The notes under the pieces were generated by a model. That model saw nothing but the letters and a program-made list of their open reading frames with translations. It was not told the DNA's origin and did not search any database. DNA of 64,000 bases from Acidihalobacter sp. (lineage in GTDB: Bacteria > Pseudomonadota > Gammaproteobacteria > DSM-5130 > Acidihalobacteraceae): assembly GCA_027013225.1 (NCBI GenBank), contig JALUXU010000063.1:1-64000 (forward strand). Direction: 5' to 3'. Below, piece after piece: positions 42,736 to 44,463 of the stretch (within the stretch, counting starts at the first letter, position 1; each line of letters begins with the position of its first letter). The translations under genes and the position numbers were made by a program.

Positions 42736-43257
42736 TTACCTTTCTTGTAGCCTCGGTATCAACATCGCTAGATTGCAGGGACGGGTGCGGTGATCGAGTT
42801 GCGCCTCGATGAGCTTATCCCAGCCAGTGCGGCAGGCGCCGGAAGAACCGGGCAGGCAGAAGATGTAAGTGCCGTTGGCCACGCCGGCCAACGCCCGCGA
42901 CTGGAGGCTCGAGGTTTTTATCTCTTCGAAGGAAAGCATGCGAAACAGTTCGCCGAAGCCGCTGATCTGCTTGTCCAGTAGTACCTCTATGGCTTCCGGC
43001 GTGCCGTCGCGGCCGGTCACGCCAGTGCCCCCAGTGCTCAGTACGGCATGCACGTCGGGGTCCGCGATCCAGCGCGAGACAGTAGCGCGGATGCGGTAGA
43101 TATCGTCGGGTTCTATGGCTTTTTCCGCCAGTTTGTGGCCAGCTTTTTGCAGCCTTTCGACCAGTAGCCGCCCAGACGTATCGTCGGCTTCGGTGCGGGT
43201 GTCGGACACTGTCAATACGGCGATGTTCAATGGAATGAAGTTGTTGTCTTTGTTCAT
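42736..43257 (-). CDS. moaB: Molybdenum cofactor biosynthesis protein B
   Basis: MoaB/MogA-fold protein that binds molybdopterin; in many bacteria it adenylylates the pterin before molybdenum insertion. The 173-residue protein has [37 protein letters not shown] and [27 protein letters not shown], the full family pattern. Its product would be needed for the molybdopterin oxidoreductase at 27-28 kb, the only likely user in this window. Confidence 0.94.
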
Positions 43258-43457
43258 CGATTGCCTCTTGTGATGGGGAAATTCATTTTCCGTGTGGTGA
43301 AACCATACGGCAAGGCTTATATGCTAACAAGGCTGTTGTTGTCGCTCCGGCGAGTGTGGGGTCAGGGAGAAAACGAACGAAAAAAGCAGATTGAAGACCG
43401 TGAATAACTATTTTGAGCGCTTTTTTAATGCCTGGTCATGCCTGAGAGTAGAATTTC

Positions 43458-43620
43458 CAGGACCACGTCATCTAACCGTGGGGGAGCGGGTGTCTGCTTG
43501 GGAAAACGCGGTGAATACATCCCTGTAGGGTCGACGGCGGCCTCCTTGCCGCCTACGTTTTCCAAGCAGACGCCCGCTCCGCTTTTCGACTGCTTACGAA
43601 TTTAGATGACAGGGCCTTGG
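43458..43620. repeat. MITE-like inverted-repeat element
   Basis: The 393-bp gap between moaB and rluB contains an element of about 163 bp with nested symmetry. The outer ends are GTCATCTAA (43467-43475) and TTAGATGAC (43602-43610), a perfect 9-bp inverted repeat. Inside, arms at 43484-43508 and 43556-43579 are near-perfect complements (one indel, one mismatch), around a GGCGGC/GCCGCC hairpin (43536-43553). TAGAATTTC occurs directly on each side (43449-43457 and 43621-43629), like a target-site duplication. No coding capacity. No second copy was noticed in the window. Confidence 0.6.
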
Positions 43621-43650
43621 TAGAATTTCAACTACTGCTACACTTGCCCT

Positions 43651-44463
43651 ATGAAATCTTTTCCATCTTCAGAACGATTGCAGAAATTGCTGGCCCGCGC
43701 GGGGATCGGCTCCCGGCGAGAAATCGAGCGGTGGATCGTCGCTGGTGAAATCTCGGTCAACGGCCAAAAGGCGACCCTCGGCATGCATGCTTCGTCTCAG
43801 GATCGTATCAAGTTGCGCGGCCGCTTACTGAGTCTGCCATCCACCCGAAAAATCACTCCGAGAGTGTTGATCTATAACAAACCCGAAGGTGAGGTTTGCG
43901 CCCGCCGCGATCCGCAAAACCGGCCTACCGTCTTTAGGAATTTGCCCACTGGGCGCTGGATTGGCGTGGGCCGCTTAGACATCAATACGCAGGGACTTTT
44001 GTTGTTCACCAATGACGGCAGGTTGGCGCATCAGCTGATGCATCCAGCGACTGGCGTAAAGCGCGAATATGCGGTTCGGCTGCGGGGCGAGCTGGATGAA
44101 TCGCAAATGCGGCGTCTGCTGGAAGGGGTGAGGCTGGAGGATGGCCCCGCGCGTTTCGAGGCGATCAAGGCCGCTCGACAGGGCGAAGGCATAAATCAAT
44201 GGTATCACGTGATCCTGAGGGAAGGCCGTCAGCGAGAAGTGCGCCGTCTAATGGAAGCCGTGGGCTTGCCGGTGAGCCGACTGATCCGCGTGCGCTATGG
44301 TAACGTCGAGTTGCCCAGGGGGTTGCGAAGCGGTAAGTGGAGAGCTCTGGATGAGCCCGCTTTGCAAGCCCTGTATGCGCTCGCGGGTCTGGAATATGCC
44401 GCGCCTTCAGCCACGCAAAATCACCGGCGCCAGACACGCGTTCATCGCCGTCGCCCTCGTTAG
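43651..44463 (+). CDS. rluB: 23S rRNA pseudouridine synthase, RluB/RluE family
   Basis: Makes pseudouridine 2605 in 23S rRNA if it is RluB. The 270-residue protein has an N-terminal S4 domain (RLQKLLARAGIGSRREIERW). The catalytic domain contains GRLDINTQGLLLFTNDG, with the conserved Asp, plus the PEGEVCARRDP and EGRQREVRRLMEAVG motifs. The last 20 residues are basic (RRQTRVHRRRPR) and probably bind RNA. It lies downstream of scpB in many proteobacteria; here moaB and a repeat element are interposed. It converges on the next gene with a 10-bp gap. Confidence 0.92.
   Translation: MKSFPSSERLQKLLARAGIGSRREIERWIVAGEISVNGQKATLGMHASSQDRIKLRGRLLSLPSTRKITPRVLIYNKPEGEVCARRDPQNRPTVFRNLPTGRWIGVGRLDINTQGLLLFTNDGRLAHQLMHPATGVKREYAVRLRGELDESQMRRLLEGVRLEDGPARFEAIKAARQGEGINQWYHVILREGRQREVRRLMEAVGLPVSRLIRVRYGNVELPRGLRSGKWRALDEPALQALYALAGLEYAAPSATQNHRRQTRVHRRRPR

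Follow-up and report, generated by a model that had tools for sequence, protein, structure and literature searches.

What is the inverted-repeat element that separates a moaB-like gene from an rluB-like gene in Acidihalobacter sp., and what does it carry? In the window, the whole 64,000-nucleotide stretch of DNA analysed here, the moaB-like gene (42736-43257, minus strand; named from the first reading of the sequence and from synteny) and the rluB-like gene (43651-44463, plus strand) are divergent neighbours. The element adjoins rluB, is 162 bp in length (43458-43619, plus strand) and runs from CAGGACC to GGCCTTG. Its left terminal inverted repeat is CAGGACCACGTCATCTAA (43458-43475, plus strand); the right one (43602-43619, minus strand) reads TTAGATGACAGGGCCTTG on the plus strand and CAAGGCCCTGTCATCTAA on the minus strand. 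Inside these lie two 23-nt arms (43483-43505 and 43558-43580, both given on the plus strand), which have two mismatches and form the long stem of an embedded palindrome, and the arms enclose a conserved core of 52 nt (43506-43557, minus strand). The central GGCGGC...GCCGCC hairpin described in the earlier note is present. The only open frame across the element has 55 codons and was judged to be due to chance. To the left of the element, at 43320-43360, is one end of another repeat (TAACAAGGCTGTTGTTGTCGCTC...), which is multi-copy in a genome of the same genus (G001); the gap between moaB and rluB has thus apparently received two insertions.

The earlier note had proposed an inverted-repeat element with a possible target duplication beside rluB. 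This element is real, and the duplication, counted there as 9 bp, measures 10 bp, with GTAGAATTTC at 43448-43457 and identically at 43620-43629. When the genome to which the window belongs (2.27 Mb in 73 contigs) was screened, 36 matching pieces were found, so the pattern is not due to chance. Full-length copies make up 23 of these pieces; the remainder are incomplete, and some of them are internal deletions ~48 and ~83 bp in length. The full-length copies are ~84-92% identical to the window copy, apart from two with an inverted centre, which are ~74-75% identical. Perfect 10-bp direct repeats flank 13 of the 23 copies, each repeat being different, and at 20 of the 23 at least 8 of the 10 positions agree; when the left flank of one copy was compared with the right flank of another, no more than 7 of 10 matched. 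The copies thus share their ends but differ in their flanks and short direct repeats, the pattern that the earlier note had named as support for a mobile element. The element is short, non-coding and multi-copy, with terminal inverted repeats and target-site duplication: it is a MITE that has inserted and spread in many copies.

One further copy (L020) has a low direct-repeat score for the sole reason that its left end contains a nested 109-bp palindrome; ATGCTTTCAG is present on both sides of the composite of MITE and nested palindrome. This palindrome, GACATGATGTTTTGACC...GGTCAAAACATCATGTC, has TA ends and is inserted at a TA in the MITE copy (L020; L125, G000:C24:37099-37370). It resembles an IS630/Tc1-type MITE, and part of another copy adjoins L016. 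In two further copies, L024 and L025 (G000:C27:8698-8867 and C57:93825-93987), the segment between the arms is inverted relative to the MITE ends, as expected if the arms had recombined or served for template switching.

The site itself was compared with that of relatives. The MITE is absent from the four family relatives searched. In G001, the relative whose intergenic DNA was aligned, only a short spacer that lacks the element lies between moaB and rluB, and the other relatives have the two genes in this order too, as expected of an insertion between these two genes. The relatives examined showed no exact empty site carrying GTAGAATTTC once, since even the nearest of them has intergenic DNA that has diverged too far.

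Which transposase could have mobilized the MITE? The consensus ends of the family are CAGGACCACGTCATCTAA (CAGGACC) at the left and CAGGGCCCTGTCATCTAA (CAGGGCCCTG) at the right. We measured three annotated ISAs1-family elements, ISVa13, ISPa60 and an Acidiphilium copy: all have CAGGG ends and a perfect duplication of 10 bp, and the ends of ISRm21 are also CAGGG. The MITE shares the 10-bp target duplication and the CAGGG start, while comparison of its end with the best ISAs1 ends sampled gave 6-7 differences in 18 positions. With its CAGG...CCTG ends and 10-bp duplication, ISAs1 is the best attribution, and the ends and duplication length suggest that this is likely a MITE of ISAs1 type. PF13808, the diagnostic ISAs1 domain, is absent from the window's own genome and from the four relatives, and none of the DDE_Tnp_1 (PF01609) genes found carries MITE ends, so that no full transposon partner was found here; a MITE relic does not require one. 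Most simply, the family is an orphaned relic: an ISAs1-family transposase, since lost from the genome, would most likely have moved the non-autonomous MITE. Insertion of the MITE between moaB and rluB duplicated 10 bp. Where MITE ends occur in isolation, IS3- and IS30-like fragments lie next to them; with their translations judged by eye, these were taken to be neighbouring remnants and not partners. The ends of the E. coli H-repeat were too degenerate to serve for comparison. A pattern search of viral contigs for MITE ends gave six isolated matches, none with a partner end.

For the centre of the MITE, the earlier note proposed a likeness to short intergenic repeats of Gammaproteobacteria, and correctly so, with the part common to the class being the inner 52-nt core only. 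When the consensus was searched against 369 genomes of Gammaproteobacteria from 271 genera, it gave matches in 52 genomes and 47 genera, nearly always confined to consensus positions 49-100. Named carriers are Marinobacter nauticus, M. salarius, M. lipolyticus, M. confluentis, Halopseudomonas xinjiangensis, Dasania sp. and Pseudomonas linyingensis. The matches are flanked by near-perfect inverted repeats of ~20-40 bp, the sequence of which varies between genomes and often between loci as well. One genome (G242) has ~22 cores within 395 kb, some with arms that are perfect over 38-41 bp, and the window's own genome has one extra core outside the MITE, with different arms (C69:121743). Since the core is common to the class and its arms are specific to the locus, the MITE in the window has captured one copy, which forms its inner arms and core; a class-wide palindrome is embedded in the MITE.

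This palindrome is apparently both widespread and undescribed. An Rfam search of the core gave no match above the gathering score; matches to Ysr224 and to miRNA hairpins were far below theirs and were judged to be chance products of long perfect stems. Searches of E. coli genomes, plasmids, phages and viral contigs gave no copy of the core, although its absence from the plasmid and phage collections is weak evidence, these being poor in carrier hosts. Some arm families move as whole units. An example is a second MITE-like family in G242 (L177 1584-1717, L225-L244), consisting of 134-bp palindromes with the same core and the ends TACTAATGAGTCAC...GTGACTCAGTAATA, of which there are at least 20 copies and in which no target duplication beyond TA is visible. 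Insertion of the core might generate inverted arms through snap-back copying; the same-genus relative examined for this idea, G370, is only ~70% identical, and one arm family transposes in whole units of 134 bp. A first look at another genome, G252, gave 475 core candidates, and one core copy there (L133) has ~48 extra bases, containing a further palindrome, inserted at the loop of hairpin 2.

To describe the fold we used a gapless alignment (A2) of 36 core copies from ~30 genomes, on the strand opposite to that shown for the window. The core forms a three-way junction of 18 pairs, with 95.8% of cells paired and changes on both sides at 13 of the 18 pairs. Covariation is 0.345, compared with 0.118 in shuffles (0 of 500 reaching it) and no more than 0.07 in slid controls. 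Both hairpins are capped by loops of six bases. In 32 of the 36 copies CANGGANG is exact in both loops, and such variation as there is falls almost wholly at its N positions. The GGA triplets are at columns 16-18 and 39-41, which places the two sites ~20 nt apart, and hairpin 1 is commonly UACAGGGAUGU. In the window, on the minus strand, the first CANGGANG site is the hairpin 2 loop CAAGGAGG (43541-43548) and the second is the hairpin 1 loop CAGGGATG, within TACAGGGATGTA (43518-43525). A later set, comprising the named-genome copies (four Marinobacter, Halopseudomonas, Dasania and one Pseudomonas), was fetched after the idea about the loops had formed; here the hairpin 2 stem is often replaced (AAAAACAGGGATGTTTTT, CGCCAGGGATGGCG) and the loops are retained.

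These paired loops, overlooked in the earlier note, match the type bound by CsrA/RsmA. The rules for such sites include a SELEX consensus, RUACARGGAUGU, and presentation as an ANGGAN hexaloop, and a CsrA dimer can bridge two sites that are 10-63 nt apart, with an optimum above 18 nt (PMC7652899, PMC3791407). The core has GGA within ANGGAN hairpin hexaloops and a spacing within the 10-63 nt range. We consider it probable, at roughly 0.6, that the core is a bivalent CsrA-binding RNA element captured by the MITE. Some conserved positions outside the loops, for example GUAUUNAC, are not explained by CsrA.

Might the MITE instead be an ordinary one, with a centre that is an old, functionless REP-like insertion and arms kept symmetrical by template-switch correction? 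The arms differ among the copies of one genome and yet stay complementary, as correction of quasi-palindromes predicts, and the inverted inter-arm segments of L024 and L025 fit as well. Furthermore, both CsrA-type loops are kept in just 17 of the 23 copies in the window's own genome. The window copy itself has GACCC in place of GAGCC in hairpin 1, a change that in the predicted fold allows CCC-GGG pairing, so that the GGA of the second loop is no longer free; together with the count of loops kept, this suggests that the MITE may be partly decayed in its own genome. However, across distant genera the loops are far more constrained than the stems, and correction alone does not predict a strand asymmetry of the wobbles. 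We regard a functionless centre as unlikely.

Such an asymmetry is present. Selection on the arms as RNA should leave more G-U than A-C mismatches on the active strand. On the GGA strand, G-U outnumbers A-C by 79 to 52 in the arms of the first set and by 13 to 5 inside the core. The later set agrees in direction, with 29 against 4 (p=1e-5), although related copies within a genome were counted separately and the p values are thus optimistic. This bears on a second alternative, that the core is a DNA-level signal in which an HUH/RAYT-like transposase, or some other DNA-binding dimer, recognises two hairpins extruded on one strand, and that the loops are conserved for such recognition rather than for CsrA. 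Dispersed multi-copy palindromes with conserved tips do resemble REP/RAYT systems (PMC3733652), GTAG is often found just ahead of the stem, and the arms can be perfect at the DNA level. However, DNA hairpins do not favour an excess of G-U over A-C, GTAG is not conserved, with GTAC, GTAA, GCAG and GGGG also found, and the exact CANGGANG pattern, in which the free positions are its Ns, would then be a coincidence. A DNA signal is in our view improbable, and binding of CsrA to RNA remains the preferred reading of the core.

Other features of the genomes favour that reading less. The orientation of the GGA strand to neighbouring genes is unbiased (tandem arrangements 11 versus 9 and 7 versus 5), which counts against a role as RNA. 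In other genomes the cores avoid divergent promoter regions, whereas the MITE copies in the window's own genome do not (7 divergent). The csrA gene is present in this genome (C68:9747) and was found in 47 of the 52 genomes with a core match, compared with 19 of the 21 without. Among the five exceptions, three genomes are 75-88% complete and the match in another, G239, is only 26 bp; csrA was also not found in G199, although this genome has real cores and a completeness of 98%. To our knowledge csrA is nearly universal in Gammaproteobacteria, so its presence is compatible with the reading and discriminates little. The most suggestive outside evidence is by analogy. In a pull-down from P. putida, the RNAs bound in vivo by RsmA, RsmE and RsmI came both from a long palindromic intergenic region and from the intergenic DNA next to copies of ISPpu8, and the authors gave no explanation for them (PMC7937890).

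How might such an element act? The centre of the MITE is a captured copy of the gammaproteobacterial palindrome, with long arms that vary by locus and a conserved 52-nt tip. On the minus strand this tip would act as RNA, offering one CsrA/RsmA dimer its two sites ~20 nt apart. Read-through transcripts might then bind and titrate CsrA, or themselves become CsrA targets, and the spread of the MITE would have scattered predicted CsrA sites over the genome. More tentatively, the repeats of the class as a whole, of which a genome has tens to hundreds, may encode bivalent CsrA/RsmA hairpins, and the copy captured and dispersed by the MITE in this lineage may be a distributed CsrA sponge or a transposon-built regulon; we put this forward as a possibility. 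If the core does bind CsrA, then the unexplained intergenic palindromes of Marinobacter and many Gammaproteobacteria would be a distributed system for titrating or targeting CsrA, and mobile elements would be a direct route to the rewiring of post-transcriptional regulons. For the palindromic RNAs reported to be bound by Rsm proteins in P. putida, the core likewise supplies something definite to test.

Several known systems are close to what is described here. The ISAs1 family and the MITEs derived from it resemble the present element in their CAGGG ends and in duplicating 10 bp of target. Unlike ISAs1 elements, the present MITE lacks a transposase and carries a CsrA-like core, and the inner part of its terminal repeat differs (GTCATCTAA versus CGCATGAA). 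The REP/BIME sequences of the GTAG super-family (PMC3733652) are, like the core, short, palindromic, intergenic, gammaproteobacterial and present in many copies, and the core likewise often has GTAG at the foot of hairpin 2. In contrast to them, it has two hairpins and long locus-variable arms, its GTAG is not conserved, and its loops are conserved as CANGGANG. In CsrA-titrating sRNAs of the CsrB/RsmZ type, as in the core, each RNA has several hairpins that end in ANGGAN hexaloops, whereas the core element has two sites, is dispersed in tens to hundreds of copies and has no Rfam match above the gathering score. Finally, the Rsm-bound RNAs near ISPpu8 in P. putida (PMC7937890) are long, palindromic, intergenic and linked to a mobile element, and it is by this description that we liken them to the core.
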